Source: Ehretia macrophylla (lineage: Eukaryota; Streptophyta; Magnoliopsida; Boraginales; Ehretiaceae). From it: 64,000 nucleotides of DNA. Under the pieces are notes generated by a model. It was not told the origin of the DNA. It was given only the letters and a program-made list of their open reading frames with translations, and did not search any database. The stretch is taken from assembly GCA_037974665.1 (NCBI GenBank), contig CM075771.1, positions 18,077,425 to 18,141,424 of the forward strand, written 5' to 3'. This document shows positions 33,501-62,512 of the stretch, one piece after another; within the stretch, counting starts at the first letter, position 1, and every line of letters begins with the position of its first letter. The position numbers were made by a program, and so were the translations under genes.

Positions 33501-36500
33501 GCACCGGAGCGACGGAGACTTGGTTGTAGGCCCCACGCCCTCGGTTTGCGGGCGCACCCTCTGGGTGAAGCGAAGTTGTCTTGCCCAAGGTGGCGTGGGA
33601 TTTGGTAATAGAAATGTGATGGATTATGTTGTCGTCTTTTTCACGGCTCACGACTTACGATCTGGGATGAAAAAATAGCGCAAAAGAAGAAAAGTGTAGC
33701 AAAACTTATGAAAACGTTCAATTTTGGGCTCCAAAAACTGGCACAGCTGAGCAGGCTTTATGGCACCATCGTAGAGCTCTCGGAGAGCTTTCCAACGGTA
33801 TGCTGTGCGCCGCGTAACTCCTTATGGATCAAAAGTTATGGGCACCGGAGCGACGGAGACCTGGTCCTAAACCCTACGCCCTCAGTTTGCCGGCCCAGCC
33901 TCTACGTGAAGCGAAGTTGTCTTGTCCAAGGTGGCAAAGGATTCGGTAATAGAAATGTGATGGATTAGGTTGTCGTCCTTTTCGTGGCTCACGACGTACG
34001 ATCCGGGACGGAAAACTAGCGCAAAAGAAGAAAAGTGTCCCGAAACTGATGAAATTGTTCGATTTTGGGCCCCAAAAATAGGCACAACCGAGCAGATTTG
34101 GTGTCCCCTTTGTAGAGCTCTCGGAGAGCTTTCCAACGGTATGTTGTGCGCCGCGTAACTCTTTACGGATCAAAAGTTATGGGCACCGGAGCGACGGAGA
34201 CCTGGTCCTAAGCCCCACGCCCTTGGTTTGTAGGCCCAGCCTCTACGGGAAGCGAAGTAGTCTTGCCTAAGGTGTCGTGGGATTTGGTATTAGAAATGTG
34301 ATGGATTAGGTCGTTGTTCTTTTCGCAGCTCACGGCGTACGATCCGGGACAGAAAAATAGCACAAAAGAAAAAAAGTGTCCAGAAACTGATGAAAATGTT
34401 CGATTTTAGGCTCCGAAAAAAGGCACAGCCTAGCAGGCCGTCGTAGAGCTCTTGGAGAGCTTTCCAACGGTATGCTGTGTCTGCGTAACTCCTTACGGAT
34501 CAAAAGTTATAGAGACCGGAGCGACAGAGACCTGGTTCTAAGCCCCACGCCCTCGGTTTGCAGGCCCAGCCTCTACGTGAAGCGAAGTTGTCTTGCCCAA
34601 GGTAGCTTGGGATTCGGTAATAGAAATGTGATTGATTAGTTTGTCGTCCTTTTCGCGGCTCACGACGTATAATCCGAGATGAAAAAACAGCGCAAAAGAA
34701 GAAAAGTGTTCAGAAATTGATGAAAATGTTCGATTTTGGGCTCTGAAAACAGGCGCAGCCAAGCAGGCTTGTTACCTATGTCATAGAGCTCTCGGAGAGC
34801 TTGCCAACGGTATGCTGTACGCTGCGTAACTCTTTACGGATCAAAAGTTATGGGCACCAGAGCGACGGAGACCCGGTCCAAAGCCCCACGCCCTCGGTTT
34901 GAGGGCCCAGCCTCTACGTGAAGCGAAGTTGTCTTGCCCAAGGTGGCATGGGATTTGGTAATAGAAATGTGATGGATTAGGTTGTCGCAATTTTTGCGGC
35001 TTACGACGTACGATCCGAGATGAAAAAATAGCGCAGAAGAAGAAAAGTGACCAGAAATTGATAAAAACGTTCGATTTTTGGCTCAGAAAATAGGTGCGGC
35101 CGAGCAGGCTGGTTGCCCCCGTTGTAGAGCTCTCGGAAAGCTTTCCAAGGTATGCTGTACATCGCGTAACTCCTTACGGATCAAAAGTTATGGGCACCGG
35201 AACGACGAAAACCTGGTCACAAGCCCCACGCCCTCGGTTTACAGGCCCAACCTCTACGTGAAGCGAATTTGTCTTGCCCATGGTGCCGTGGGATTCGGTA
35301 ATAGAAATATGATGGATTAGGTTGTCGTCCTTTTTGTGGCTCACGACATATAATCCGGGACGGAAAAACATCGCAAAAGATGAAAAGTGTCCCGAAACTG
35401 ATGAACATGTTTGATTTTGGGCTTCGTAAACAGGTGCATCCGAGCAGGCTTGCTACCTCTGTCGTATAGCTCTCGGAGAGCTTTTTAACGGTTTGCTGTG
35501 TGCCGTGTAACTCCTTACGAATCAAAAGTTATGGGCACCGGAGCGACGGAGACTTGGTCCTAAGCCCCCACGCCCTTGGTTTGCGTGCCCAGCCTCTACA
35601 TGAAGCCAAGTTGTCTAGCCTAAGGTGGCATGGGATTCGGTAATATAAATGTGATGGATTAGGTTGTCGTCCTTTTCGCAGCTCACGACGTACGATTCGG
35701 GACGAAAAAACAGCGGAAAAGCAGAAAAGTGGCCAGAAACTGATGAAAATGATCAATTTTGGGCTCCAAAAATAGGCCCAGCCGTGCAGGCTTGCTGCCT
35801 CTGTCGTAGAGCTCTCGGAGAGCTTTCCAACGGTATTCTGTGCGCCGCGTAACTCCTTACGGATCAAAAGTTATGGGCACCGGAGCGACAGAGACCAAAT
35901 CCTAAGCACCACGCCCTCGGTTTGCGGGCCCAGCCACTACGTGAAGTGAAGTTGTCTTGCCCAAGGTTCCATGGGTTCGGTAATAGAAATGTGATGGATT
36001 GGGTTGTCGTCCTTTTCGCGGCTCACGATGTACTATCCGGGACGGAAAAATATCGCAAAAGAAGAAAAGTATCTAGAAACTGATGAAAATGTTCGATTTT
36101 GGTCACTGAAAACAGGCGCAGCTGGGCAGGCTTGCTGCCCCAGTCGTACAGCTCTCGGAGAGCTTTCCAACAGTATGTTGTGCGCCGCATAACTCCTTAC
36201 GGATCAAAAGTTATGGGCACCGGAGTGATGGAGACCTACTCCCAAGCCCCACGCCCTCGGCTCGCGAGCCCAGCTTCTACGTGAAGTGAAGTTCTCTTGC
36301 CCAAGGTGCCATGGGATTCGGTAATAGAAATGTGATGGATTAGGTTGTCGTCCTTTTCGCGGCTCACGACGTACGATCCGGGACGAAAAAACAGCGCAAA
36401 AGAAGAAAAGTTTCCAGAAACTGTTGAAAACATCAATTTTGGGCTCCGAAAATAGGCGCAGCTGAGCAAGCTTGCTGCCCGCGTTGTAGAGCTCTCGGAG

Positions 36501-37734
36501 AGCTTTCCAACGGTATGCTGTGCGCCGCGTAACTCCTTACGGATCAAAAGTTATGGGCACCGTAGCGACGGACACCTGGTCCTAAGCCCCACTACCTCGG
36601 TTTGCAGGCCTAGACTCTACGTGAAGCGAAATTGTCTTGCCCAAGGTGGTGTGGGATTCGGTAATAAAGATGTGATGCATTAGGTTGTCGTCCATTTCAC
36701 GGCTCACGGCGTACGATCTGGGACGAAAAAACAGCGTAAAAGAAGAAAAGTGTCCAGAAACTGATGAAAACGTTCAATTTCAAGTTCCAAAAATAGGTAC
36801 AGCCGAGCAGGCTTACTGCCCCCGTCGTAGAGCTCTCGGAGAGCTTTCGAACGGCATGCTGTGCACCGCCTAACTCCTTACGGATCAAAAGTTATGGGCG
36901 CCGGAGCGACGGAGACCTGGTCCCAAGCCCTACGCCCTCGGTTTACGGGGCCCAGCCTCTACGTGAAGCGAAGTTATCTTGCCCAAGGTACCGTCGGATT
37001 CGGTAATAGAAATGTGATGAATTAGATTGTCGTCCTTTTCGCGGCTCATGACGTACGATATAAGACGGAAAAACAGCGCAAAAGAAGAAAAGCGTCCGGA
37101 AACTGAAGAAAACGTTCGATTTTGGGCTCCAAAAATAGGCGCAACCGAGCAGGATTGCTGCCCTCGTCGTAGAGCTCTCGGAGAGCTTTCCAACGGTATG
37201 CTATGCGCCGCGTAACTCCTTTCAGATCAAAAGTTATGTCCACCGGAGCGACGGAGACCTGGTCCTAAGCCCCACGCCCTCGGTTTGTGGGCCCAGCCTC
37301 TACGTGAAGCGAAGTTGCCTTGCCCAAGGTGGTGTGGGATTCGGTAAGAGAACTATGATTGATTAGGTTATCGTCCTTTTTGCGGCTCACGACGTACGAT
37401 TCGGGAAGAAAAAATAGCGCAAAAGAAGAAAAGTAGCTTGAAACTGATGAAAACGTTCAATTGTGGGCTCTAAAAACTGGTGCAGCCAAGCAGGCTTGCT
37501 ACCCCCGTCGTAGAGCTCTCGGAGAGCTTTCCATCGTTATGTTGTGCGCCGTGTAACTCCTTGCGGATCAATAGTTATGGGCACTTGAGCGACAGAGACC
37601 TGGTCCTATGCCCCACGCCCTCGGTTTGCGGCCCCAGCCTCTACGGGAAGCGAAGTTGTCTTACCCAAGGGGGCGTGGGATTCGATAATAGAAATGTGAT
37701 GGATTAGCTTATCGTCCTTTTCGCGGCTCATGAC

Positions 37735-40700
37735 GTATGATCCGGGATGAAAAAACAACGCAAAAGAAGAAAAGTATCACGAAACTAATGAAAATATTGA
37801 ATTTTGGGCTCCGAAAAAAGGAACAGCTGAGCAGGCTTGCTGCCCGCGTCGTAGAGCTCTCGGAGAGCTTACCAACGGTATGCTTTGCGTTGCGTAACTC
37901 CTTACGGATCAAAAGCTATGAGCATCGGAGCGACGGAGACCTGGTCTCAAGCCCCACGCCCTCGGTTTACGGCCCCAGCGTCTACTCTAAGCGAAGTTGT
38001 CTTGCCTAAGGTAGCATGAGATTTAGTAATAGAAATGTGATGGATTAGGTTGTCGTCCTATTGGCTGCTATCGGCGTACGATCCGGGATAGAAAAATAGC
38101 GCAAAAGAAGAAAAGTATACCGAAATTGATGAAAACATTCGATTTTGGGCTCCAAAATTAGGCGCAGCCGAGCAGGATTGCTGTGCCCATTGTAGAGCTC
38201 TCAGAGAGCTTTACAACGGTATGCTGTGCACCGCATAACTCCTTACGAATCAAAAGTTATGGGCACCGGAGCGACGGAGACCTTGTCCCAAGCCCCACGC
38301 CCTCGGTTTGTGGGCCCAGCCTCTACGTGAAGTGAAGTAGTCTTGCCCAAGGTGGCATGGCATTCGGTAATAAAAATGTGATGGATTAGATTTTCGTCCG
38401 TTTCCCAGCTCACGACGTACAATCCGAGACGGAAAAATAGCTCAAAACACGAAAATTATCCCAAAACTGAAGAAAACGTTCGAATTTGGGATCCAAAAAA
38501 AGGCGCAACCGAGCAAGCTTGTTGTCCCCGTTGTAGAGCTCTTGGAGAGCTTTCCAACGGTATGTTGTGCACCGCGTAACTCCTTACGGATAAAAAGTTA
38601 TGGTCTTCGGAGCGACGGAGACCTAGTCCCAAGCCCCACGCCCTCGGTTTACGGGCATAGCCTCTATGTGAAGCGAAGTTGTCATGCCTAAGGTGCCGTG
38701 GGATTCGGTAATAGAAATGTGATGGATTAGGTTGTCGTCCTTTTCGTGGCTTACGACGTACGATCCGGGACGGAAAGATAGCGCAAAAGAAGAAAAGAAT
38801 CCCAAAATTGATGAAAACGTTCGATTTTGGGCTCCGAAAATAGACGCAGCTGAGCAGGCTTGCTGCCCCCATCGTAAAGCTTTCGAAGAACTTTCCAACG
38901 GTATGCTTTGCACCTCGTAACACCTTACGGATCAAAAGTTATGGGCACCGGAGCGACGGAGACCTGTACCTAAGCTCCACGCCCTCGGTTTACGGGCCCA
39001 GCCTCTACGTGAAGCAAAGTTGTCTTGCCCAACTTGCCATGGGATTCGGTAATAGAAATGTGATGGATTAGGTTGTCGTTCTTTTCGTGGCTCACGACGT
39101 ACGATCCGGGACGGAAAAACATCTAAAAAGAAGAAAAGTATCCCAAGAGTGATGAAAACGTTCGATTTTGGGCTCCGAAAATAGGCGCAGCTAAGTAGGA
39201 TTGCTGCCCACGTCGTAGAGCTCTTGGAGAGCTTTCCAACGATATGCTGTGCGCCGCGTAACTCCTTACGGATCAAAAGTTATGGGCACCGGAGCGACGA
39301 AGACCTTGTCCCAAGCCCCACGCCCTAGGTTTATGGGCCCATCCTTTACGTGAGGCAAAGTTTTCTTGCCCAAAGTGACGTTGGATTCGGTAATAGAAAT
39401 GTGATGGATTAGGTTGTCGTCCTTTTCGCGGCTCACGACGTACGATCCGGGATGGAAAAACAGCGCAAAAGAAGAAAAATGTCTCGAAATTGATGAAAAT
39501 GTTCAATTTTGGTGTTCGAAAATAGGCGCAGCCAGGTAGGCTTGTTGCCCCTGTCGTAGACCTCTCGTAGATCTTTCAAATGGTAAGTTGTGCGCCGCGT
39601 AACTCTTTACGGATCAAAAGTTATGGGCACTGGAGCGACGGAGACCTGGTCCAAAGCCCCATGCCCTTAGTTTGCGTGCCCAGCCTCAACGTGAAGCGAA
39701 GATGTCTTGCCCAAGGTGCCATGGGATTCGGTAATAGAAATAAGATGGATTAGGTTGTCGTCCTTTTCGAGGCTCACGACGTACGATCCGGGACGAAAAA
39801 ATAGCTCAAAAGAAAAAATATATTCCGAAAGTGTTGAAAACATTCGATTTTGGGCTTCGAAAATAGGCTCAGCCAAGAAGACTTACTACCTTCATCATAG
39901 AGCTATCAGAGAGCTTTCCAACGGTATGCAGTGCGCCGCAAAACTCCTTACGGATCAAAAGTTATGGGCACCGGAGCGACGTAGACCTTGTCCTAAGCCC
40001 CACGCCCTAGGTTTGGGGGCCTAGCCTCTACGTGAAGCGAAGTTATCTTGCCCAAGGTGTCGTGGGATTCGGTAATAGAAATGTGATTGATTAGGTTGTC
40101 GTCCTTTTCGCGGCACACGACGTACGATCAGGAACGGAAAAACAGTTCAAAAGAATAAAAGTGTCACGAAAGTGATGAAAATATTCGATTTTGGGCTCCG
40201 AAAATAGGCGCAACAGAGCAGGCTTGCTACCCTCATCGTAGACCTCTCGGAGAGCTTTCCAATGGTATACTGTGCGCCGCATAACTCCGTGCGGATCAAA
40301 AGTTATGGGCATCGGAGCGACGGAGACCTGGTCCTAAGCCCCACGCCCTCGATTTGCAGGCCCAACCTCTAAGTGAAGCGAAGTTGTCTTGCCCAAGGTG
40401 GCATGGGATTCGATAATAAAAATGTGATAGATTAGGTTGTTGTCCTTTTCGCGGCTCACGAAGTACTATCCGGGAAGGAAAAACAGCGTAAAAGAAGAAA
40501 AGTATCACAAAATTGATGAAAATGTTCGTTTTTGGGCTCTGAAAATAAGCGCAGCCGAGTAGGCTTGCTGCCCCCATCATAGAGCTCTCGGAGAGCTTTC
40601 CAACCGTATGTTGTGCGCCACGTAACTCCTTGCAGATCAAAACTTATGGGCACTGGAGCAACGGCAACCTGGTCACAAGCCCCACGCACTCGGTTTATGG

Positions 40701-43700
40701 GCTTAGCCTCTACGTGAATTGAAGTTTTCTTTCCCAAGGTGCCGCGGGATTCGGTAATTGAAATGTGATGTATTAGGGTGTCGTCCTTTTGGTTGCTATC
40801 GACGTACGATCTGGGACAGAAAAATAGCGCAAAAGAAGAAAAGTATACCGAAATTGATGAAAAAGCTCCATTTTAGGATCTGAAAATATGCACAGCTGAG
40901 CAGGATTGCTGCCCCCTTTGTAGAGCTCTCGGAGAGCTTTTCAACGGTATGCTGTGCGCCACGTAGCTCCTTACCAATCAAAGGTTATGGGCACCGGAGC
41001 GACGGAGATTTGGTCCTAAGCCCTACGCCCTTGGTTTGCAGGCCCAGCCTCTACGTGAAGTGAAGTTGTCTTGCCCAAGGTGCGATGGGATTCGGTAATA
41101 GAAATGTGATAGATTAGGTTGTCGACCTTTTCGTGGCTTACGACGTACGATTCGGGACGGAAAAACAGTGCAAAAGAAGAAAAATGTCCAAAAATTGACG
41201 AAAACGGTCATTTTTGGGCTCCGAAAATAGGCACAGCAGGGTAGGCTTGTTGCTACCCCGTCGTAGAGCTCTCAGAGAGCTTTCCAACGGTATGTTGTGC
41301 GCTGCGTAACTCCTTACAGATCAAAAGTTATAGGCACCGGAGCGACGGAGACCTAGTCACAAGCCCCAAGAACTCGGTTTGTGGGCCCAGCCTCTATGTG
41401 AAACAAAGTTGTCTTGCCCAAGGTACCGTGGGATTTGGTAACAGAAATGGGATGGATTAGGTTGTCATCCTTTTCGAGGGACACGACGTATGATCCGAGA
41501 CGGAAAAACAGCGCAAAAGAAGAAAAATGTCCCAAAATTGAAGAAAACAGTCATTTTTGGGCTCCGAAAATGGGCACAGTAGAGTAGGCTTGCTGCCCCC
41601 GTCGTAGAGCTCACGGAGAGCATTCCAATGGTATGATGTATGCCGCGTAACTCCTTACGGATGAAAAGTTATGGCCACCGGAGCGACGGAGACCTGGTCA
41701 CAAGCTCCACGCACTCGGTTTGCGGGCCCAGCCTCTATGTGAATCGAAGTTTTCTTGCCCAAGGTGCCGTTGGATTCGGTAATAGAAATATGATAGATTA
41801 GGTTTTCGTCCTTTTCGCGCCTCAAGACGTACGATCTGGGACAGAAAAATAGCTCAAAAGAAGAAAAGTATCCCGAAACTGATGAAAGTGTTTGATTTTG
41901 GGCTCTGAAAATAGGCGCAACTGAGCGGCCTTCCTGCCCATGTCATAGAGCTCTCGAAGAGCTTTCCAACGGTATGCTGTGCGCCGTGTAACTCCTTACG
42001 GATCAAAAGTTATGGGTACCATAGCGACGGATACCTGGTCCTAAGCCCCACGCCCTCGGTTTGTTGGCCCAGCCTCTACGTGAAGCGAAGTTGTCTTGCC
42101 CAAGGTGCTGTGGGATTCGGTAATAGAAATGTGATGGATCAAGTTGTCGTCCTTTTCTCAACTCACGACGTACGGTCCAGGACGGAAAAACAGCGCAAAA
42201 GTAGAAAAGTATCCCAAAACTGATGAAAATATTCGATTTTGGGCTCCGAAAACAGGCGTAGCTGAGCAGCCTTGCTGCCGATGTCGTACAGCTCTCGGAG
42301 ATCTTTCCAACGGTATGCTGGCCGAGGCGTACCTCCTTACGGATCAAAAGTTATGGGCACCAGAGCAACGGAGACCTAGTCCCAAGCTCCATGCCCTCGG
42401 TTAGCTGGCCCAGCCTCTACGTGAAGCGAAGTTTTCTTGCCCAAGGTGCCGTGGGATTTAGTAATAGAAATGTGATGGATTAAGTTGTCGTTCTTTTCAC
42501 GGCTAACGACGTACGATCCAGGACGAAAAAACATAGCAAAAGAAGAAAAGTATCCAAAAACTGATGAAAATGTTCAATTTTGGGCTCCAAAAATAGGTAC
42601 AGCCGAGCAGGCTTGCTGCCGTCGTCGTAGAGCTCTCGGAGAACTTTCCAACGGAATGTTGTGCGCCACGTAACTCCTCACGAATCAAAAGTTATGGCCA
42701 CCGGTACGATGGAGACTTGGTCATAAGCCCCACGCCCTCTGTTTGCGTGCCCAGCTTTTACGTGAAGCGAAGTTGTCTTGCCCAAGGTGCCGTGGGATTC
42801 GGTAATATAAATGTGATGGATTAGGTTGTCATCCTTTTCGCGGCTCAGGACGTACGATCCGGGACGGAAAAATATCTAAAAAGAAGAAAAGTATCCCAAA
42901 AGTGATGAAAACGTTTATTTTTGGGCTCCGAAAATAGGCGCAGCCAAGTAGGATTGTTGCCCCCGTCATAGAGCTCTTGGAGGGCTTTCCAACGGTATAC
43001 TGTGCGCTGCGTAACTCCTTACGCATCAAAAGTTATGGGCACCGGAGTGACGAAGACCTTGTCCTAAGCCCCACGCCCTAGGTTTCCGGGCCCAGCCTTT
43101 ACGTGAAGCGAAGTTATCTTGCCCAAGGTGCCATGGGATTCGGTAATAAGAATGTGAGGGATTAGGTTGGAGTCCTTTTCGGGGCGCACGACATACGATC
43201 TGGGATGGAAAAACAGCTCAAAACAAGAAAAGTGTCTCGAAAGTGAAGAAAACGTTCGATTTTGGTGTCCGAAAATAGGCACAGCTCAGTAGGCTTGTTG
43301 CCCCCGTCATAGACCTCTCGTAGAGCTTTCCAACGGTATGCTGTGCGCCGCGTAACTCTTTACGGATCAAAAGTTATGGGCATTGGAGCGACAAAGACCT
43401 GGTCCAAAGCCCCACGCCCTCGGTTTGTGTGCCCAGCCTCTACGTGAAACGAAGATGTCTTGCCCAAGGTACCATGGGATTCGGTAATTGAAATAAGATG
43501 GATTAGGTTGTCGTCCTGTTCGCGGCTCATGAAGTACGATCCAGGACGGAAAAATAGCTCAAAAGAATAAAAGTATTCCGAAAGTGTTGATAACGTTCCA
43601 TTTTGGGCTATGAAAATAGGCGCAGCCGAGTAGGCTTGCTGCCCTCGTCGTTGAGCTCTCGGAGAGCTTTCCAATGGTATGTTGTGCGCCACGTAACTCC

Positions 43701-46700
43701 TTACGGATAAAAAGTTATGGGCACCGAAGCGACGGAGACCTTGTCCTAAGCCCTATGCCCTCAGTTTGTGGGCCCAGCCTCTACATGAAGTGAAGTTGTC
43801 TTGCACAAGGTGCCACGGGATTCGATAATAGAAATGTGATGGATTAGGTTGTTGTCCTTTTCGCGGCACACCACGTACGATCAGGGACGGAAAAATAGCT
43901 TAAAAGAAGAAAAGTGTCCCGAAATTGATTAAAACATTCGATTTTGGGCTCCGAAAATAGGCACAGCCAAGCAGCCTTGCTAACCCCATCGTAGAGCTCT
44001 CGGAGAGCTTTCCAACGGTATACTGTGCGCCGCATAACTCCTTACGGATCAAAAGTTATGGGCACCGGAGCGACGGAGACCTGGTCATAAGCCCCACGCC
44101 CTCGATTTGCGGGCCCAACCTCTACGTGAAGCGAAGTTGTCTTGCCCAAGGTGTCGTGGGATTCGATAATAAAAATGTGATGGATTAGTTTGCCGTCATT
44201 TTTGTGGCTCACGACGTACGATCCAGGACGGAAAAACAGCGTAAAATAAGAAAAGCGTCCCAAAACTGATGAAAACATTCATTTTTGGGCTCTGAAAATA
44301 GGCACAGCCGAGTAGGCTTACGGCCCCCTTCGTAGAGCTCTCGGAGAGCTTTCCAACAGGATGTTGTGCGCCGCTTAACTCCTTACAGATCAAAACTTAT
44401 GGGCACCGGAGCGACGGCGACTTGGTCACAAGCCCCACGCACTCAGTTTACGGGCCTAGCCTCTACGTGAATCGAAGTTTTTTTGCCCAAGGTGTCGTGG
44501 GATTCGGTAATTGAAAAGTGATGGATTAGGGTGTCGTCCTTTTGGTTGCTATCGACGTACGATCTGGGACAGAAAAACAGCACAAAAGAAGAAAAGTGTA
44601 CCGAAATTGATGAAAACGCTCGATTTTAGCATCCGAAAATATGCGCAGCCGAGCAGGATTGCTTCCCCCATTGTAGAGCTCTCGGAGAGCTTTTCAACGG
44701 TATGCTGTGCGCTGCGTGGCTCCTTACGAATCAAAGGTAATGGGCACCGGAGCGACAGAGACCTGGTCCTAAGCCCCACGCCCTCGGTTTACGGGCCTAG
44801 CCTCTACGTGAAGATAAGTTGTCTTGCCCAAGGTGCTGTGGGATTCGGTAATAGAAATGTGAAGGATTAGGTTGTCGTTCTTTTCGTGGCTCACGACGTA
44901 CGATCCGGGACGGAAAAACAGCTCAAAAGAAGAAAAGTGTCCTAAAGTGATGAAAACGTTCAATTTTGGGATCCGAAAATAGGCACAGCTGAGCAGGCTT
45001 GCTGTCCCCGTCCTAGAGCTCTCAGAGAGCTTTCCAACGGTATAATGTACACTGTGTAACTCCTTACGGATCAAAAGTTATGGGCACCGGAGTGACGGAG
45101 AACTGGTCCAAAGCCCTACGCCCTCGGTTTGCTAGCCTAGCCTCTACGTGAAGCGAAGTTGTCTTGTCCAAGGTATCGTGGGATCGATAATAGAAAGGTG
45201 ATGGATTAGGTTGTTGTCCTTTTCGCAGCTCACGACGTACGATCCGGGATGAAAAAAGAGATCAAAAGAAGAAAAGTATCCCGAAACTGATGAAAACGTT
45301 CGATTTTGGGCTCTGAAAATTGGCGCAGCCAAGCAGGCTAGTTGCCCTCGTCGTAGAGCTCTCGGAGAGCTTTCCAACAGTATGATGTGCGCCGCGTAAC
45401 TCCTTACGGATCAAAAGTTATGGGCACTAGAGCGACGGAGACCTGGTCCCAAGCCCCACGCCCTCACTTTGCGGGCCTAGCCTCTACGTGAAGCGAAGGT
45501 GTCTTGCCTAAGGTGGCATGGGATTCGGTAATAGAAATGTGATGGATTAGGTTGTTGTCCATTCGGTTGCTATCGACGTACGATCCAGGACAGAAAAATA
45601 TCACAAAAGAAGAAAAGTGTCCCGATATTGATGAAAACATTCGATTTTGGGCTCTAAAAATAGGCGCATCCGAGCAGTATTGCTGCCCCCATTGTAGAGA
45701 TCTCGGAGAGCTTTTCAACGGTATGCTGTGTACCGCATAACTCCATACGAATCAAAAGTTATGGGCACCGGAGCGACGGAGACCTAGTCCCAAGCCCCAC
45801 GCCATCGGTTTGCGGGCCCACCCTCTACGTGAAGCCAAGTTGGCTTGCCTAAGGTGGCATGGCATTCGGTAATAGAAATGTGATGGATTAGGTTTTCGTC
45901 CATTTCGCGGCTCGCGACGTACGATCCGAGATGAAAAAATAGCTCAAAAGATGAAAACTGTCCCGAAACTGATGAAAACGTTCGATTTTGGGATCCGAAA
46001 ACAGGCGCAGCTGAGCAGGCTTACTACCCCCGTTGTAGAGCTCTCGGAGAGCTTTCCAACGGTATGCTGTGCGCCGCGTAATTCCTTACGGATCAAAAGG
46101 CACCGGAGTGACGGAGACCTGGTCCTATGCCCCACGCCCTTGGCTTGCTGGCCCAGCCTCTACGTGAAGCGAAGCTGTCTTGCCCAAAGTCCTGTGGGAT
46201 TCGGTAATATAAATGTGATGGATTAGGTTTTCGTCCTTTTCGCGGCTCACGACGTACGATCCGGGATGAAAAAATAGCACAAAAGAAGAAAAGTGACCCA
46301 AAACTGATGAAAACGTTCAATTTTTGGCTCTGAAAATAGGTACAGCTGAGCAAGCTCGGTGCCTCCGTCGTAGAGCTCTCGGAGAGCTTTCCAACGGTAT
46401 GTTGTGCGTCGCGTAACTTCTCACAAATCAAAAGTTATGGGCACTGGACCGACGACGACCTGGTCCCAAGCCCCACGCCCTCGGTTTGCAGGCCCAGCCT
46501 CTCTGTGAGGCGAAGTTGTTTTTCCAAAGGTGCCATGGGATTCGGTAATAGAAATGTGATGGATTAGGTTGTCGTCCTTTTTGCGGCTCACGACGTGTGA
46601 TCTGGGATGGAAAAACAGCACAAAAGAATTAAAGTGTCCCAAAACTGATGAAAACGTTCGATTTTGGGCTCCGAAAATAGGCGCCCTCGTCGTAGAGCTC

Positions 46701-48141
46701 TCGGAGAGCTTTCCAACGGTATGCTATGCGCCGTGTAACTCCTTACGGATCAAAAGTTATGATCACCGGAGTGAAGGAGACCAAGTCCTAAACCCCAAGC
46801 CCTCGGCTTGCGGGCCCAGCCTTTACGTGTAGCAAAGTTGTCTTGGCTAAGGTACCGTGGGATTCGGTAATAGAAATGTGATGGATTAGGTTGTCGTCCT
46901 TTTTGCGGCTCACGACGTGTGATCTGGGATGGAAAAACAGCGTAAAAGAAGAAAATGTCCCGAAAATGATGAAAATGTTCGATTTTGGGCCCCAAAAATT
47001 GGCGCAGCAAAGCAAGCTTGCTGCCCCCGTCGTAGAGCACTAGGAGAACTTTCCAATGGTATACTGTGCACTGCGTAACTCATTGCAGATCAAAAGTTAT
47101 GGGCACCGGAGCGACAGAGACTTGGTTCAAAGCCCCACGCCCTCGGTTTGCGGGCCTAGCCTCTACGTGAAGCGAAGATGTCTTGCCCAAGGTGCCATGG
47201 GATTTGGCAATAGAAATAAGATGGATTAGGTTGTAGTCTTTTTCACGGCTCACGACGTACAATTCGGGACGGAAAAACAGCTCAAAAGAAGAAAAGTATT
47301 CTGAAAGTGTTGAAAACATTCGATTTTGTGCTCCGAAAATAGACACAGCCGACAAGGCTTGTTGCCCTCGTCGTAGAGCTCTCGGAGAACTTTCCAACGG
47401 TATGGTGTACGCCGCGTAACTCTTCACGGATCAAAAGTTATGGGCATCGGAGCGACATAGTCGTGTTCCTAAGCCCCACGCCCTAGGTTTGCGGGCCTAG
47501 CCTCTACGTGAAGTGAAGTTATATTGCCTAAGGTGCCATGGGATTCGGTAATAGAAATCTAATGGATTAGGTTTTCATCCTTTTTGCGGCACACGACGTA
47601 CGATCCGGGATGAAAAAATAGTGCAAAAGTAGAAAAGTGTCCTGAAAGTGATGAAAATGTTCGATTTTGGGCTCCGAAAATAGGCACAGTCGAGCAGGTT
47701 TCCTACCCCTGTCGTAAAGCTCTCAGAGAACTTTCCAACGGTATGCTGTGCACCGCTTAACTCCTTACGGATTAAAAGTTATGGGCACCGAAGCGACGGA
47801 GACCTGGTCCCAAGCCCCACGCACTTGATTTGCGGGCCCAACCTCTACGTGAAGTGAAGTTGTCTTGCCCAAGGTGCCGTGGGATTCGGTAATAGAAATA
47901 TGATGGATTAGGTTGTCGTCCTTTTGGCTACTATCGACGTACGATCCGAGACCGAAAAATAGCGCAAAAGAAGAAAAGTGTCCCAAAACTGATGAAAACG
48001 TTCGATTTTGGGCTCCGAAAATAGGCACCACCGAGCAGCCTTGGTACCCTCGTCGTACAGCTCTTGGCGAACTTTCCAACGGTATGCTGTGCACCGCGTA
48101 ACTCCTTACATATCAAAAGTTATGGGCACCGGAGCGACGGA
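37735..48141 (+). repeat. Eleven-monomer higher-order repeat in S4 (3753 bp)
   Basis: Independent rare variants recur at exactly 3753 bp: GTATGATCC at 37735/41488, ATCTAAAAAGAAG at 39121/42874, AAGATGGATTAGG at 39742/43495, GCGGCACA at 40110/43863, and GCTATCGACG with the preceding TTAGGGTGTCG at 40795/44548. A third copy follows at +3723 (47218 and 47586), the 30-bp shortfall being explained by small deletions near 46093 and 46676. Pairs at twice the period also exist: 38067/45569 and 38351/45853, both 7502 bp. Eleven monomers of 341 bp give 3751. About 2.8 copies are present. The next copy is split by LTR-A copy 4: GCACTCAG with GAATTGAAG at 52240-52270 fits the expected register. Confidence 0.9.
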
Positions 48142-48640
48142 TGTGAGGCCCGACCCCGAATAACGTGTCCTACCTCGATTTGCGCGCCTTAGACCTAAAA
48201 TTATATGACCGACCTAGAATTACGTGTCCTGTCTTGGTTTTCGTGCATGCCGCGTTATACGTGCCTTAACCTAGAATTGTGTGCCCTAATCCTCGATATA
48301 CGTGCGATACCTAGATAAACATGCCATGACCTTAATTTACGTGCGAGACCTTGATTTGCGTGTGTCTCTTCGTTTCGTGTGCATTAAACTTGAACTGCGT
48401 GCCTTAACCTAGATTTAAGAGTCGTGTCTTGAATTACGTGCATTGCATTGAATTACGTGCCTTATTTTGGTCTACGTTCATTCACATAGGGTTGCGTGTG
48501 TTAGCATTAGAATCCGTGCACTTATCTTGAAGTATGTGCCTTAGTCTTGAAATACGTGTTGTACCTCGTAGTTCGTGTCTTACCTCGTAGTTCGTGTCTA
48601 CCTCGTAATTCGTGTCCTAGACCTAGGAATCCGTGCCACC
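48142..48640 (+). repeat. ACGTG-rich minisatellite of LTR-A copy 4
   Basis: About 24 degenerate units of 20-22 bp, the longest version in the window, with eight exact ACGTG words on the plus strand. Typical unit words are ACGTGCCTTAACCTAGAATT. ACGTG is the core of G-box and ABA-response sites bound by plant bZIP and bHLH factors. Whether these are bound is unknown. Confidence 0.85.
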
Positions 48641-50724
48641 ACGTTAATCAAGAAAGAATCCTACACAAAGCACTAGACAATAAAATAATCCTACACAATC
48701 CACTAACCAATATTATATTCCTAATTCAAATTCTCTACAAACTCCACTAACAATAAAATAATACTAAACTATTCCTACATTTCCCACTAACTATTATTCT
48801 ATTCATAATTCAACTCATCAACAAACATTCCTATATTTTATTCTACCTAGATTCCCTCATTCCCCAACATTCCTATGACAATTCTAATGACACAAATGCA
48901 TAAAAAATTAGTCCTAGACAAACTATGACAAAACACTTAACACAATGCATAAAAAATTGCTCAAATTCTCCTCAAATCTCCACCATTTTCGACCAAGTGC
49001 TCCATGCCCATGCTAGCCATTTCAAAATACTCCTTGAAGACACAAAAAGTCTGAATTTGTATGCCCAAGGCTGACCATATGCTCAAAAAAAATTGCAAAG
49101 CCATTACTTTTGTCATATTCTCTCATTTCCTCTCAATTTCTCTCACTTCCCTCTCATTTTCTCTCTCCATTTCAGTTTTGGCTCAGTTCTCTCCACCTCT
49201 TAGCTCAGCTTACATCATCCTAAGGTGCATCAAGACAAACCACAAGCAAAGAAACTCACCCAAGCAAGCTAGGATGCAAGAAACACACATGCTAGCATTT
49301 TGAGTCACCATTTTCGGCCTAGGTAAGTTTTCTTGGCTTCCATTTCTTTTCTTCTTGTTCTAACCTCATGCATGTGCTAAGAGATTGATCACTAGGCTAG
49401 GGAAAATAGAGAAACCAAGTTGGAATCTCGGCTAAGCATGAAGAAGAAGAGATTTGAAGCTTCAACAAGTTTTTTGTGCATCTTGTGGTTGATTGCTAAG
49501 GTGAGGATTAAAACCTTTTGAAAACTCTTCAAAAATACACATGCATGTTCATAAATGTGTGTATTTGCTTCTGTACTTGAGCTATATGGTCGTTCATAAG
49601 CTTAAACAACCATGCATGGCAAGATCTTGGCTTGAAAATGATGCTAGGTGAAGTCGAAATTGTTGTCAGCTCTCTGACCTGTCTGTTCGAGGTAAGTTTA
49701 GCTAGGCAAATGATGTTGAAAATGTATGAAAATTGGCAGGTGACTAGTTTGGACAGTTTTGAACATTTTTCCCATAAATAGGACGAAGCTAATTTTGACT
49801 TTAAGGTCCTCAAAATGGCAAATCTTTAAAATGTGACCAAATCTGGAAGTCTGGAAAAATGAAGCAGGTTTTGGCAGATGCACTGACCTTGTGGAGCGAA
49901 CCATATTTGACTTAGTTACTGATGTCCAAAATGTATAAAAATTGGTGTTCTGTTAAAATTTTCAGTTCTAGACAATTTTGTCAGAAATGGACCAAGGCTA
50001 AAAGTGACCTTAAGGACCTCAAAAACGTCAATTTCTGAAAAGTGTGCAAATCTGGACAGTTTTGTGCTATTCCACTATTTCGGCTATATCTAATGATCCC
50101 GAACTCCAATTGATGCAAGGTTTGTTTCTGATTTTATTTAATTTCTTAAGATTTAATTTGACATCTTATTCACTGGATTTGGAGATTGTTTGGTTATCCT
50201 ATTGATTGTGAGAAAACAGCCTATTGCAGTAAAGGTTTCACTTAGCTATATGCTTGGAAAATTGATGTAACCTCTCTTGTGGTACTAATTGCTTGGAATT
50301 GTGGTGTTGGAATGTTGTGTGGACTGTTTTGGGTACTTGAGAATGTTTGAATTGAATGATGCATGACTTGAGAATGATTTTGAGTTGACTTAGGGTTTAA
50401 TCACGCGGTTAAGCATGAAACGGAAACCCTAATGACTAGGTAGTCTTGCTAAGTGTTGATCATTTGGATATTGTGTGGAAATTATATGCTTAGTGGGCTG
50501 CCCGTAAATGTCTTATGACTTCAAATGTGATTTTGACCATTGCATGTTGACAAATAAGCTTTTCTTGCACCCGAACCCATGATTGATGTCATTGCATGTT
50601 GAATAATCTTATCACTTGATCACGTGGGCTTCTTAATGAGTTATATGGCCTGTTTTACATGTGTTACATGGCTGCCTGTTTAATTTTCATATAACTCTAT
50701 ATGCCTTTCAAGTGAAATTACCTA

Positions 50725-50918
50725 TCTTATCGTGCCCTGCTTGTTTACCTGCCAATGTGCAATCTTATGACTGTCCGGAGGCAACCTACTTTGTTGTCCT
50801 CCTACTGTGATATATTTCCTGTCTTATCGTGCCCTGCTTGTTTACCTGCCAATGTGCAATCTTATGACTGTCCGGAGGCAACCTACTTTGTTGTCCTCCT
50901 ACTGTGAGATATTACCTG
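50725..50918 (+). repeat. 97-bp unit, two tandem copies, LTR-A copy 4
   Basis: Unit starts TCTTATCGTGCCC are at 50725 and 50822. Copies 1, 2, 3, 5 and 6 have a single unit and copy 7 has three, so the unit number varies between insertions. Confidence 0.9.
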
Positions 50919-50962
50919 TCATGAATGTGCATTGCATACAAGGTTGCAACCTTTCCTGTAGG

Positions 50963-51024
50963 CATGGTAGCGATCACGCACACCGGGTGGCATCGGGCTT
51001 GCTAGTGCACCTGTGACTACCATG
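50963..51024 (+). other. Stem-loop block of LTR-A copy 4
   Basis: CATGGTAG ... CTACCATG over 62 bp, preceded by AAGGTTGCAACCTT. The inner GCAC / GTGC pairing is retained although the GC-rich core differs from copy 1. Confidence 0.7.
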
Positions 51025-51208
51025 GTCCCATTCCCTCTCTCGCTTGGGGGCTAGACTTCTTCGGAGAGTTTGGTCGTAGGATTTCGGGATACATCCGGAG
51101 TACACCCACCTGGTATGTTTTGGGGGATGATTTGAAGTCGGCCGCAACTTCTGATTCTGAAACTGACCTGAGAGCAAAAGCTCACTGTATCCTTTTTACT
51201 ATCTGTAT

Positions 51209-51352
51209 AAGTACTCTCTCTTGGTTCCTAGAGAACCTCGGGGAGGAAAGACTGGTATTCTTGTTCCTGTATTTATATGTAAGTACTCTCGCTTGGTTCC
51301 TAGAGAACCTCGGGGAGGAAAGACTGGTATTTCTGTTCCCTTACTTTGTATC
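51209..51352 (+). repeat. 72-bp tandem duplication, LTR-A copy 4 only
   Basis: AAGTACTCTC starts at 51209 and again at 51281, each followed by TTGGTTCCTAGAGAACCTCG. Copies 1 and 7 show a single unit, so this duplication is specific to this copy. Confidence 0.88.
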
Positions 51353-52210
51353 CGTTACTCGATTTGTTTCTTATAATTGCGTACCTTATTATTTGTAATA
51401 CGTGACATATTCTCAAAAAGAGTTTTCATAAATTGAACCGGAAAATGAGTTTCAAAACATATTTCTCGTTCCCTCTCGCTGAGTTCATAAGGACTCACCC
51501 TCTTTTATCATCTCAGGTGAAGAAGATCAAGAACAGGTACCCAAGGACGATGTGCCTAACGATGATTCCTTGGAGTGATTGCCTGTCCCTACGTGCTTTT
51601 GTGCTTTGCCTGAAAGTGGTTGCTATATGGATGTTGTGTTTGATTGCAAACTATTCATTTTATTGATGTAAATGACCCCGTTGTAATTTGGGTTTAATTC
51701 TGGGATTGTACTATCTATAACCGGACGAACTTTTATTTGGTTGTTTGCTTTCGTTTTCTTAATTAGTAGTTATCGTAGGCATTCAAACCACTAGATGAAC
51801 AATCAACTAAGTTAATTCTATCTAATTTCACTTAGGTGCTCATGTGCAAACTAAAGTATAATAGGTACTTGCATAAGAGGAAATTGACAAATAAACGGGA
51901 CATACTTATCATGTTAGGCTAATTAACCAAACGAGCCTTTCAAGATCAAGATGTAGGGAAATTGGCTGGTGACAAATAGGAGAACTTAATGAAATTGGCT
52001 TAATGATTGGAATAATTGAGGCGTTTAGAGAATTAGGTCAAACCAAATAGCCCAATTACAGCCGTTATGCTGCCAATTTTTCGAAAAAACTTTGGAATTT
52101 AGACTAAATCATTAGGTGTTAAATCTTCATAAACAGCTAAGCATGTGATATTACCTGAATGTTTAGTTCACACCCTAGTCTAATTTTATAGGCCGGGTTG
52201 GGGCGTGACA

Positions 52211-53529
52211 ACGGAGACATGGTCACAAGCCCCATGCACTCAGTTTGCGGGCCAAGCCTCTACATGAATTGAAGTTATCTTGTCCAAGGTGTCGTGGGAT
52301 TCGGTAATAGAAAGGTGATGGATTAGGTTGTTGTCCTTCTTGCGGCTCACGACGTTCGATCTGGTACAGAAAAACAACGCAAAAGAAGAAAAGTGTGCCG
52401 AAAGTGATGAAAATGTTAGATTTTGGGCTCCAAAAATAGGTGCTGCTAACCAGGCATACTGCCTCCCTCGTAGAGCTCTCGGAGGGCTTTCCAACGGTAT
52501 GCTGTGCCCCGTGTAACTCCTTACGGATCAAAAGTTATGGGCACTGGAGCGACGGAGACCTGGTCCCAAGCCCCACGCCCTCGGTTTGCAGGCCTATCCT
52601 CTACGTGAAGCGAAGTTGTCTTGCCCATGGTGCCGTAGGATTCGGTAATAGAAATGTGATGGATTAGGTTGTCGTCCTTTTGGCTGCTATCAGCGTATGA
52701 TCCGGGACAGAAAAATAGCGCAAAAGAAGAAAAGTGTCCCGAAATTAATGAAAACATTCGATTTTGTGCTCCGAAAATTGGCGCAGCTTAGCAGTATTGC
52801 TACCCCCATTGTAGAGCTCTCGGAGAGCTTTCCAATGGTATGATGTGCACCGCGTAACTCCTTAAAGATCAAAAGTTATGGCCTCCAGAGCGACGGAGAC
52901 CTGGTCCCAAGCCCCATGCCCTCGGTTTGCGGACCCAGCCTCTACGTGAAGCGAAGTTATCTTGCCCAAGGTGCCATGGGATTTGGTAATAGAAATATGA
53001 TGGATTAGGTTGTCGTCTTTTTCGCGGCTCACGACGTACGATCTGGGACAAAAAAACAATGCAAAAGAAGAAAAGTGTCGCAAAACTAATGAAAATGTTC
53101 GATTTTGGGCTCGGAAACTAGGTGCTGCCAAGTAGGCTTGTTGTCCCCGTCGTAGAACTCTCGTAGAGCTTTCCAACGGTATATTGTGCGCCACGTAATT
53201 CCTTACGGGTCAAAAGTTATGGGCTCCGGAGCGACGGAGACCTGGTCACAAGCCCCACGCCCTCGGTTTGCAGGCCCAGCCTCTACGTGAAGTGAAGTTG
53301 TCTTGCCCAAGGATCCATGGGATTCAGTAATAGAAATGTGATGCATTAGGTTGTCGTCCTTTTCGCGGCTCACGACGTACGATCCGGGACGGAAAAACAG
53401 TGCAAAAGAAGAAAAGTGTCCAAAAACTGATTAAAACATTCGATTTTGGGCTCCAAAAACAGGCGCAGCCGAGGAGGCTTGCTACCCCCGTCGTAGAGCT
53501 ATCAGAGAGCTTTCCAACGGTACGCTGCG
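52211..53529 (+). repeat. Satellite island S5 (about 4 monomers) between LTR copies 4 and 5
   Basis: Satellite in the same orientation, resuming at the duplicated ACGGA. It ends at CTGCG (53525-53529), the target site of copy 5. The first monomer carries the same variants as the monomers at 40.7 and 44.5 kb, which continues the 11-monomer register of S4. A GCTATC variant at 52686 is one monomer later than the register predicts, so some exchange has occurred. Confidence 0.95.
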
Positions 53530-53915
53530 TGTGAGGCCCGACCCTGAATAACGTGTGTTACCTCGATTTGTGTGCCTTAGACCTAGAATTATATGACTGA
53601 CCTTGGATTATGTGTCATGTCTTGGTTTTCGCGCATGCCTCGTCATTTGTGCATTGACCTAGAATTATGTGCCCTAATCCTCAACTTACGTGCCTTGACC
53701 TCAATTTACGTGTGATACTTCATTTCGTGTGTCCTAACCTAGATTTGCGTGCCTTGACCTAGATTTAAGAACTGTGTTCCTTTTTGTGTGCCTTGCATTG
53801 AATTACGTGCATTCATTTAGGGTTGCGTGCATTTACTTGGAAAACATGCATTCGTCTCGTAGTTCGTGCCCTACCTCGTAGTGCATGCCCAAAACCTAAG
53901 AAAGCGTGCTCTCAC
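53530..53915 (+). repeat. ACGTG-type minisatellite of LTR-A copy 5
   Basis: About 17 degenerate units with four exact ACGTG words. Intermediate in length between copies 1 and 4. Confidence 0.8.
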
Positions 53916-56109
53916 GCTAATCAAGAAAGCATCTTACACGAAGCACTAGATCATTAATTAATCCTACAAATTCCACTAACTAATATTAAATTATTAATTC
54001 AACCCACTAGAAGACGAAATTGCAACAAAAGCTAGATATTCTTTATTCTTTGCATATCCCAAACACACAATTAAATAATACTCCAATAGATGACAAAAAA
54101 TTCAGATCCTAGCACTACCCTTGGTCGACCACTTGGACCCTTGTGCATGCACTTCAATTTCAAAATTAATTCCTCAAACATTCTTAGACAAGTTATGACA
54201 CAAATACATAAAAAAAAATAACCCAAAACCCTACTCAATGCACCCATATTCTCGACCCATTCCCTTGCCATGCTAGGTGATTCAAATGATGCTTCTTGAA
54301 GACACAAAATCAGATTTTTACATGCCCTAGGCCGACAAGCTCCTTTGCCCAACAAAAGCTTTTATTTTTCTTTCATTTCTCTCATTTCCTCACATTTTTC
54401 TCTCTCCCTCCCATTCTTCTCTCTTTCTCTCTCGGCTTTGGATGAGTTTCTACACTCCATAGCTTATCTTCATCACTCCATGGTTTATCAAGGCAAGCAA
54501 GAAGCTAGGGAGCTCAACTAAGCAAGCTAAGTTGCAAGAAACACACATGCAAGCTCTTTGAATCTCTATTTCGGCTTAGGTGAGTTTGCTAGCTTCCATT
54601 TCTTTTCTTCTTGTTCTAACCACATGCACCTACTAAGAACTTGGTCACTAAGCTAGGAAAAATAGAGAAAATCAAGTGGTGTCTTGGCTAAGCAAGGAAG
54701 AAGATCAACTTTGTGCTTCACCAAGAGTCTTGTGCAGCTTCTTGTTGTTTTGCTAAGTTGAGGGCTAAATCTTCTTGAAAATCTTTCAAAAAACCACATG
54801 TCTATCTTTACTTCTGTACTTGAGATATATGTGTGTTCATAAGCTTTTATAACCATGCATGACAAGATTTTGGGCTCGAATGTGTTGATAGATGAGCTCG
54901 TGCATGTCACAGCTTTCTGTGTTGTTGGTGCGAGGTAATTTTGGCTAGGTAAATGATGTTGAAAATACGTGAAAATTGGTAGGTAACTATTTTTTCCAGT
55001 TCTGAACATTTTTCATAGAAATAGGCCAAAGCTAATTTTGATTCTAAGGTCCTCAAAATGGAAAATAATTAAAATGTGTCCAAATCTGGAAAGTCTGGAA
55101 AAATGAAGTAAGTTTTGGCAGATTCACTGACCTTGTAGAACGAACCAGTTTTGACTTAATAAATTATATCCAAAATGCATGAAATTTGGTGTACTGATAG
55201 ATTTTTCAGTTCTGGACATTTTTGTCAGAAATGAACTAAGGCTAAATCTGACCCTAAGGCTCTCAAAAACGACAAGTATTGAAATGTGTGCAAATCTGGA
55301 CAGTTTTGTGCAGTCTCACTGTTTTTGGTATAACTATTGAACCCGAACTCCAAATGATGCGAGGTTGGTTTCTGAATTTATTTCACTTCTTAAGCTTTAA
55401 TTTGACATCTTATTCACTGGAATTGGAGATTGTTTGCTTGTCTTAACGATTGTGAGAAAACAGCCCATTGCAGTGAGGGTTTCACTTAGTGATATGCTTA
55501 GAAAAATTATTGTAGCTTCTCTTGTTGTATTAAATGCTTGGGATTGTGGCATTGAGATGTTGTGTGGACTGTTTTGAATACTTGAGGGTGTATGAACTAA
55601 TCAATGCACGGCTTGAGATTGATTTTGAGTTGACTTGGGGCTTAATCGCACGGGTAAGCACGAAATGGAAACCCTAGTGACTAGGTAAATTCACTAAGTG
55701 TTGATCCTATGAATATCGTGTTTAATTATATGTTTAGTAGGCTGCCCGTAGTTGCCATTGTAGCCCTAAATGCGATCTTGATGATTACATGTTGACAAGT
55801 AGGCCTTTCTTGCACCCGGTCCCACGTAGATGCCGTTGCATGATGAATAATCTTATTAATTGATTACGTGAGCTTTGAAATGAGTTATATGATTTGATTT
55901 ACGTGTGTTACATGGCTTCCCGTTTAATGTTCATATAACTCCATGTGCCTTTCAAGTGAAATTACTTGTCTTATCGTGCCTCGCTTGTTTACTTGTCAAT
56001 GTACAATCTTATGACTGCTCGGAGGCAACCTACTTTGTTGTCCTCCTAATGTGATATATTAAATGTCATAAATGTGCATTGCATACAAGGTTGCAACCTT
56101 TCATTCTGG

Positions 56110-56172
56110 CGTGGTAGCGTTCACGCACACCGGGCGGCATCGGGCTTGCCGGTGCAACCGTGACTACCATTG
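56110..56172 (+). other. Stem-loop block of LTR-A copy 5
   Basis: The outer left arm has one change from the usual CATGGTAG. The inner pairing CACCGGG / GCCGGTG is kept. Confidence 0.6.
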
Positions 56173-57387
56173 TCCAATTCCCTCTCTCGCTTGGGGGCTA
56201 GACTTCCTTGGAGAGTTGGGTCGTAGGATTTCGGGGTACATCCGGAGTACACCCATTTGGCGTGATAAGAGGATGATTTGAAGTCGGCCGCAACAACTGA
56301 TACTGGAAATGAACTGAGAGCAAAAGCTGTCACGCCCCAACCGGCCTATAAAGGTTAGACTAGGGTGTGATCTAAACATTCAAGTCATTTCGCGTACTTA
56401 ACCGTTTATGAAGATTTAACACTTAACGTTTTGGCCTAAACTCCAAAATTTTCCAGAAACCGGCAGCATAACGGCTGTAATTGGACTCTTTGGTTTGGCC
56501 TAATTCTCTAAACACCTCAAAATTTTCTAATCTCAAGTTCATTTCCAACTAAGATTGCTATTTATCATCAATTGAAACGCCTATTGGTTATCTCGATGTC
56601 TCGTTTGATTTATAACCTAGCATGATACTATGTCTCGTTCGTTTGTTTATCCTCGTTACAAAGTACCTGTTTTAGCTTAATAGCGAGTACCTGTTTAAGA
56701 TTGGATAAGTTCATTTACTTAGTCCTTAACTAATACGTCATGACCTATGATAGATACTAGCGGTAATAATAGCAAAACAATCACAGTAGTGTCTAGTGTC
56801 TGTCTAGCAATATCAGTACAAACCAAAATTAGACCCCAAATTACAACGGGGGTCTTTTACATTACAAATAGCAAGCAGCATAAAGAAATAGTTTTCAGGT
56901 AGCATTGAGTTCACAAGTAGCCACAATCACGCAAAGCACACAAGACAAGCAATCACTCCAAGGATTCATCGTTAGGCACACCGTTCTCGGGTACCTGTTC
57001 TGGATCTTCTTCACCTGAGATGATAAAAGAGGGTGAGTCCTTATGAACTCAGCGAGGGGGAACGAGAAATTGGTTTTGAAACTCATTTTCCTGTTCAACT
57101 TATGAAATCCTTTTGCAAGCGTGAATATAACACTAATATCAGTACAGGAATAGAAATACCAGTCTTTCCTCCCCGAGGTTCTCTAGGAACCAAGCAAGAG
57201 TACTTATACACATAGTAAAAAGGATACAGTGAGCTTTTGCTCTCAGATCAGATTCAGAATCAGTTGTTGCGGCCGACTTCAAATCATCCCCAAAACACAC
57301 CAGGTGGGTGTACTCCGGATGTACCCCGAAATCCTACGACCCAACTCTCTGAGGAAGTCTAGCCCCCAAGCGAGAGAGGGAATGGAA

Positions 57388-57450
57388 CAGTGGTAGTCAC
57401 GGGTACACCGGCAAGCCCGATGCCTCCCGGTGTGTGTGATCGCTTCCACG
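57388..57450 (-). other. Stem-loop block of LTR-A copy 6
   Basis: The weakest version of the structure: the outer arms are imperfect while the CACCGG / CCGGTG pair is intact. The neighbouring AAGGTTGCAACCTT palindrome is intact. Confidence 0.5.
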
Positions 57451-58258
57451 CCGACAGGAAAGGTTGCAACCTTGTATGCAGTGCACATTTATGACATTAA
57501 CATATCACGTTAGCAGGACAACAAAGTAGGTTACCTCCAGACAGTCATAAGATTGCACATTGACAAGTAAACAGGCAGGGCACGATAAGACAAGTAATTT
57601 CACTTGAAAGGCATATAGAGTTATATGAACATTAAACGGGCAGCCATGTAACACATGTAAATCAAGCCATATAACTCATTACGAAGCCCACGTGATCAAG
57701 TAATAAGATTATTCAACATGCAATAACATCTATGTGGGTTCGGGTGCAAGAAAAGCCTATTTGTCAACATGCAATGATCAAAATCATATTTAGGACTATA
57801 AAGGCATTTACGGGCAGCCTACTAAACATATAATTCCACACAATATCCAAATGATCAACACTTAGCAAAACTACCTAGTCATTAGGGTTTCCATTTCGTG
57901 CATATTCGTGCAATTTGAGCCTCAAACCAACTCAAAGTCAATCTCAAGCCATGCATCATTTAATTCAACATCCTCAAACATTCAAAACAGTCCACACAAC
58001 ATCCCGAAGCTACAATCCCAAGCATTTAATTCAACAAGAGGAGTTACCACAATTTTTCTAAGCACAACATTAAGTGAACCCTTACTGCAATAGGCTGTTT
58101 TCTCACAATCAATAGGATAAGCAAACAATCTCCAAATCCAGTGAATAAGATGTCAAATTAAATCTTAAGAAGTTAACTAAATTCGGAAACAAACCTTGCA
58201 TCAATTGGAGTTCGGGATCATTAGATATAGCCGAAACAGTGGGATAGCACAAAACTGT

Positions 58259-58640
58259 CCAGATTTACACACTTTTCAGTAATTGACGTTTTTGAGGTCC
58301 TTAGGCTTAGATTTAGCCTTAGTCCATTTCTGACAAAAATGTCCAGAACTGAAAAATATATCAGTATACCAAATTTCATGCATTTTGGACATCATTTAAT
58401 AAGTCAAATCTGGTTCGTTCTACAAGGTCAGTGCATCTGCCAAAACCTGCTTCATTTTTCCAGATTTCCAGATTTGGACACATTTTAAAGATTTGACATT
58501 TTTCGGACCTTAGAATCAAAATTAGCTTTGGCCTATTTCTGCGAAAAATGTTCAAAACTGTTCAAAATAGTCACCTACCAATTTTCATGCATTTTAAACA
58601 TCATTTGCCTAGCAAAACTTACCTCGAAACAAACTGGTCA
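58259..58640 (-). repeat. 209-bp internal tandem duplication, LTR-A copy 6
   Basis: Units start with CCAGATTT at 58259 and 58468, 209 bp apart. The parallel words CCATTTCTGACAAAAATG and CCTATTTCTGCGAAAAATG show the relationship of the two units clearly. Confidence 0.78.
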
Positions 58641-62468: not shown

Positions 62469-62512
62469 TCATGAATGTGCATTGCATACAAGGTTGCAAC
62501 CTTTCCTGTCGA

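Follow-up and report, generated by a model that had tools for sequence, protein, structure and literature searches.

A 3753-bp recurrence in a 341-bp satellite array of Ehretia macrophylla: block duplication and not an 11-monomer higher-order repeat

A stretch of 64,000 nucleotides from Ehretia macrophylla (assembly GCA_037974665.1, contig CM075771.1; C8:18077425-18141424, hereafter the window) carries arrays of a 341-bp satellite in which variant words recur at exactly 3753 bp, and it raises the question of whether this distance is the length of a repeating unit or the trace of another copying event. The first-pass annotation of the window had proposed a unit, namely an 11-monomer (3753-bp) higher-order repeat. 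According to the analysis presented here, the locus holds a real block duplication, which is not an 11-monomer higher-order repeat and is not unusual in kind. Its history was quite probably an old local duplication of 7-8 monomers and a larger duplication of the array, followed by separate insertions, monomer gain and loss, and decay. The genome searched comprises 1.58 Gb in 20 contigs and, with its many TTTAGGG telomere repeats and 35 chlorophyll a/b-binding matches, is that of a green plant; window-relative coordinates below 1 or above 64,000 denote positions on the same chromosome outside the window.

The satellite occupies four stretches of the window according to Tandem Repeats Finder (TRF) and five according to the profile parse, the extra one being 24647-25341. 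The nhmmer monomer parse yielded 110 monomer pieces in the window, 101 of them longer than 300 bases, and was used instead of plain ungapped autocorrelation, which was dropped because indels between monomers make it misleading. The stretches are set apart by inserts, largely related long terminal repeat (LTR) sequences, and the best genome matches of the satellite are scattered over many places on many contigs. A literature search for a 341-bp plant satellite found no paper tied to the Ehretia macrophylla sequence, and the 341-bp repeat in PMC4053949 belongs to pika. The arrays and the insert between them are as follows.

29029..48141, plus strand: old 341-bp satellite array of 57 monomer pieces, mean pairwise identity 0.836 (nhmmer parse, pairwise identity).
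48142..52210, no strand: LTR-A copy 4, an LTR-length insert recognized by its termini and a 5-bp target duplication (ACGGA).
52211..53531, plus strand: array resumed after LTR-A copy 4, four monomers (TRF start 52211; monomers 52227-53531).

The 3753-bp distance holds for all five word pairs quoted for the proposed unit, and for none of them is the longest exact word present more than twice in the window. It is also the commonest distance between the two copies of 20-mers that are found twice and no more in 29029-48141 (66, followed by 2728 bp with 52). In this array, the mean identity of full monomers reaches 0.845 at lag 11, as compared with 0.836 at lags 10 and 12 and about 0.835 at most lags (z against other lags of 4.7), while lag 22 follows with an identity of 0.8415 and a z of 3.0. 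Permutation of monomer order reached the lag-11 value in 0 of 2000 trials at lag 11 and in 1 of 500 over any lag from 1 to 30. The peak over the two neighbouring lags that the annotation had looked for is present, whereas its origin is one pair of blocks and not a whole unit. The excess is carried by 7 of the 45 scored pairs, all consecutive (38971/42724 to 41017/44770, identity 0.874-0.915); the remaining 38 average 0.8366, which is background, and lag 11 without the seven-monomer tracts stands at 0.837. The two tracts are denoted U1 and U2.

38971..41357, plus strand: tract U1, seven monomers in a row with a second copy at +3753 bp (lag-11 identities 0.912, 0.877, 0.874, 0.886, 0.889, 0.915 and 0.879).
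42724..45107, plus strand: tract U2, the partner of U1 by lag-11 identity and rare variants.

The mean identity of the seven-monomer run is 0.891 (~89%) against 0.835 at other lags, a difference that is clear and modest, and each U1-U2 monomer pair differs by 29-43 variants with gaps counted. The best seven consecutive pairs share 53 rare variants, while the maximum in 1000 permutations was 38. Without any block duplication, patchy gene conversion or the exchange of variants among monomers might produce such sharing, and some variant monomers do recur at lags 3, 8, 9, 11, 12, 14, 19 and 22; yet seven neighbours with one order and one spacing, gap-free over the first 2110 bp of the U1-U2 alignment, need one event and not seven. 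Blocks of several monomers were copied, and on this point the view of the annotation, that amplification went beyond single-monomer exchange, stands.

A repeating 11-monomer unit requires more than the seven positions, and the recurrence at 3753 bp holds for one seven-monomer block pair. A true 11-monomer higher-order repeat, formerly regular with at least three units and decayed to the seven positions now visible, would be consistent with U1 and U2 at 3753 bp and with a weak in-register signal between U1 and a third tract, U3, at lag 22. However, the four pairs ahead of the run (37607 to 38630 against +3753) are at background (0.812, 0.804, 0.824 and 0.836), i.e., 4 of 11 positions, beside neighbours at 0.87-0.92, which uniform decay does not explain. 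One of the quoted word pairs, 37735/41488, is a 13-bp match located within these unmatched monomers.

37607..38627, plus strand: three monomers of the claimed unit, unmatched at +3753 (background identity).
38630-38966, plus strand: fourth unmatched monomer of the claimed unit (0.836 at +3753).
45450..48141, plus strand: tract U3, a weak partial third copy (best pairs 37948/45450, 38289/45791 and 39653/47129).

The third copy that had been reported is weak and partial: at lag 22, U1 and U3 have 28 rare variants in common across 8 monomers (rank 10 among 1224 overlapping segments), while U2 and U3 match poorly at lag 11, with 15 shared rare variants, and lags other than 11 and 22 give at most 19. 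The register had also been thought to continue beyond LTR-A copy 4, but the four lag-11 pairs across this insert score 0.836, 0.844, 0.847 and 0.834, which is background identity, even if the first of them does share 4 rare variants. Furthermore, none of the monomer pairs among the 440 full monomers compared has five variants or fewer; at about 10 variants, a threshold scaled to the longer monomer, two pairs pass (6 and 8 variants), neither of them in U1 or U2.

The spacing itself could be examined in a second copy of the array. Three diagnostic words of the duplicated tract were found again in a genome-wide search near C8:17.826 Mb, two of them with one mismatch, at spacings of 616 and 1650 bp (616 and 1651 bp in the window).

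38258..53531, plus strand: satellite part of a larger duplication, LTR-A copy 4 excepted (paralogue C8:17824645-17837851, same orientation).

All 33 monomers that span 38290 to 53531 form one collinear chain with 33 of the 39 forward paralogue pieces (17824677-17837851; identities 0.808-0.938); the chain scores 54.6, whereas 50 permutations gave no more than 19.0. Some 50 kb beyond it, outside the window, is a second anchor, at which nine monomers of the satellite locus L033 match those from window-relative 89564 onward (0.846-0.928) with order and orientation kept. The offset between the copies is nearly the same throughout: 291.0 kb (38290), 293.1 kb (53531) and 291.6 kb (second anchor). The monomer order is thus the same at two separate places beyond chance, as judged from the 33-monomer chain with its permutation control and from the nine-monomer anchor, and we conclude that the array was apparently duplicated as a large block, whose outer satellite anchors on the window side (38258 to 92503) are ~54 kb apart. 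As well, a head-to-head switch of satellite orientation near C8:17824645 (locus L032) coincides with the left edge of the paralogous block and is a likely breakpoint.

Both tracts are present in both blocks, and in the paralogue they lie 13 monomers apart (lag 13, mean identity 0.850; lag 11, 0.837). Eleven is therefore not a unit length; two monomers were gained in the paralogue or lost in the window between the tracts, and the spacing follows local gains and losses. A period read at one locus can in this way be an accident of later events, and the decayed 11-monomer repeat is unlikely. Since both blocks carry both tracts, the local duplication most simply preceded the larger one, an order weakly favoured by the quartet, in which 32 sites pair like tracts of the two blocks and 19 each fit the two alternatives.

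Under the reading of local followed by larger duplication, 7-8 monomers, with a weaker third partner, would first have been copied nearby, as the homology between the tracts shows, possibly by unequal exchange or break repair. Next comes the duplication of the array as a larger block to a place ~291 kb away on the same chromosome, shown by the monomer order at the two anchors. Subsequently, monomers were gained or lost in the copies, leaving the tracts 11 apart in the window and 13 apart in the paralogue, and LTR-A copy 4 entered the window copy only. With no later homogenization, the copies may have decayed to the present ~88-90% identity.

The paralogue array is uninterrupted at the position of LTR-A copy 4, and because this insert is found only in the window block, it most simply would have been acquired after the larger duplication. 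The next insert is different, as it meets the same satellite base in both blocks.

53532..59691, no strand: nested LTR DNA present in the paralogue at the identical satellite and nest bases (alignment through both junctions; transposable element (TE) part 95.7%).

The alignment of the blocks runs from satellite into this nested LTR DNA for 7.5 kb (17836532-17844045 against window 52211-59691) at 93.4%, and L033 aligns with window-relative 89099-96734 for 7.6 kb at 91.7%, also across a junction; a separate alignment of L033 satellite with window-relative 89099-92503 had 1369 gap columns and was excluded.

Several observations weigh against the history set out above or against parts of it. For the seven-monomer run, a permutation test on runs of identity across the 260-kb region gives a borderline outcome (score 10.4; highest value in 100 permutations, 10.39); very similar single pairs elsewhere may inflate these permutations. 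The rare-variant test was judged cleaner, though it is weaker once the best pair is removed, since the sum then drops to 35, which equals the permuted maximum and is reached by 1 of 1000 permutations. Two of the chained monomers, 52227 and 52568, are at background identity (0.808 and 0.831), and the block reading draws on its two anchored ends. The quartet is nearly star-like, with an identity of 0.892 within the window and of 0.884 and 0.907 across blocks, and the order of the two duplications is therefore supported chiefly by the presence of both tracts in both blocks. With regard to the inserts, a 300-bp query over the junction matches at nearly full length at 40 listed places on 12 contigs, 39 of them besides the window, in a list selected as the best of 8772 candidates. 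The outer LTR piece is equidistant from the paralogue (0.958) and from an unrelated copy (0.957); its three comparisons give 0.958, 0.957 and 0.956, with 63, 59 and 56 shared sites, and the inner LTR piece is likewise star-like (0.958, 0.959 and 0.962). At the second junction, the two LTRs of the window-side element are closer to each other (0.973) than LTRs are across blocks (0.962), and 52 sites group them together, against 24 and 42 for the other patterns.

Because of the recurrence of the junction, the star-like TE copies and the grouping of the second-junction LTRs, the shared satellite/TE junctions were withdrawn as proof of co-duplicated transposons. In favour of descent, at two places the inserts occupy an identical base of paired monomers, and one nest base is common to both blocks, while the second-junction LTRs contradict descent unless they were converted. 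The matching inserts may have arisen separately, each at a preferred base, or they may have been inherited and their LTRs converted afterwards. A precise insertion preference in the satellite is possible, and it is made plausible by the apparent clustering of insert junctions at a few monomer columns together with the recurrence of the junction sequence at the other listed places. Between window-relative -67423 and 180123, 18 gaps in the satellite were recorded, one of only 216 bp (e.g., 53531/64944 and 25341/29029), and on the columns of the 341-bp monomer four of them fall at 217-223, four at 276-288 and three at 339/24-26. At 424-645, a truncated monomer ends at profile column 223, which is common to several insert junctions, and is followed directly by a new monomer, perhaps as a scar.

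The two blocks also allow satellite and TE divergence to be compared. Paired satellite differs by 11.6% between blocks (33 monomers; bootstrap identity 0.874-0.894) and TE DNA by 4.2% (10,380 sites), the satellite divergence being ~2.7 times that of TE DNA at the same bases in both blocks, and transversions per site amount to 0.043 in the satellite and 0.012-0.017 in the TE DNA. If the insertions were inherited, the nested TEs could be used as an internal clock of the satellite; otherwise, separate insertions in the two arrays found identical bases of paired monomers, and insertion into the satellite would have to be very precise; and if they came later than the duplication, the contrast in rates says only that the inserts are younger. 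That the insertions were duplicated with the satellite, and that the satellite therefore has a faster point-mutation process, had been a tentative proposal and became a doubtful one after the LTR comparison. A previous study on human centromeres reported a mutation rate raised 1.1- to 4.1-fold in flanking regions (PMC11062924), and the maize CEN10 paper considers that tandem repeats might change faster (PMC4806543).

The satellite differences between blocks occur in clumps, to a degree that none of 300 column-preserving permutations attained, as patchy conversion might leave them; TE DNA is equally clumped, however, and clumping is therefore not decisive for gene conversion. Import from neighbouring monomers was not seen in 640 diverged 60-column windows, where the nearest other monomer belonged to the same locus in 210 and to the other locus in 222, with 208 ties. 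Conversion without block duplication appears very unlikely. An assembly error, in which a falsely duplicated or divergent haplotype piece was placed 291 kb away, has in its favour that the basis is a single assembly without reads. On the other side, the divergence given above for paired satellite and TE DNA, six monomers and LTR-A copy 4 all distinguish the blocks, and the orientation switch near 17824645 bounds the other one. Such an error is very improbable.

How the locus compares with described repeats depends on the definition. A TRASH higher-order repeat comprises at least three consecutive monomer pairs (default LM=3) with, by default, at most five variants per pair (PMC10199239). The seven pairs agree with this in their order and in their 3753-bp spacing, but not in similarity, given their 29-43 variants. 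Likewise, the higher-order repeats that TRASH calls in Arabidopsis CEN178, as presented in the same paper, pair equal-sized monomer blocks in order, as here, and unlike here do so at no more than five variants. Tandem multimer repeats of primates and plants, in the account of PMC4053949, also arise from copied multi-monomer blocks; there, the units are in tandem and the multimers much more alike than the monomers, whereas the window has one pair and a weak third (0.89 against 0.84). The whole multimer does not recur as that definition implies: 4 of 11 positions are at background, and the paralogue spacing is 13. We saw no function in the 3753-bp spacing.

Multi-monomer units, which had been described as less often reported in plants, are on record for several of them, namely Arabidopsis (PMC10199239), Papaver (PMC11406182), Populus (PMC12046899), Sorghum and switchgrass (PMC4053949), and maize (PMC4806543). 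According to PMC4806543, maize CEN10 carries an adjacent duplication of 10 CentC monomers, later broken by a retrotransposon, as well as a 22.7-kb segmental duplication of nested retrotransposons, and its CentC duplications were dated to 98-498 thousand years. The Ehretia macrophylla case resembles it in that a large segment, possibly together with its nested retrotransposons, was duplicated locally and later took up insertions, and in single-monomer loss. It differs in that the maize duplications are younger and adjacent, while here the identity is 88-89%, the monomer is 341 bp long and the large copy lies ~291 kb off. By this comparison, the present locus looks like an older example of the maize CEN10 kind. 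A collinear partner block lets matched monomers be traced individually after duplication, which in our judgement is rarely possible in satellite DNA.

Finally, further local structures were observed. Related LTR stretches at 48142-52210 and ~59595-63663 lie 11453 bp apart, and both contain an internal 97-bp tandem repeat (2.1 and 3.1 copies). Most of the 11.4-kb insert at 53532-64943 appears to be made up of LTR pieces that are related to one another and nested in either orientation; two of them seem to be broken at the same LTR position. The second array of the window, 18572-20272, contains a small lag-3 duplication with identities of 0.95 (18912/19934) and 0.90 (18572/19594). At C8:18222442-18242755 (window-relative 145018-165331; loci L021, L022 and L029), monomers of ~335-341 bp alternate with composite ones of ~437 bp that contain an internal duplication of 99 bp, partly as a 1210-bp long-long-short unit with 0.84-0.91 identity over 1.6 kb.
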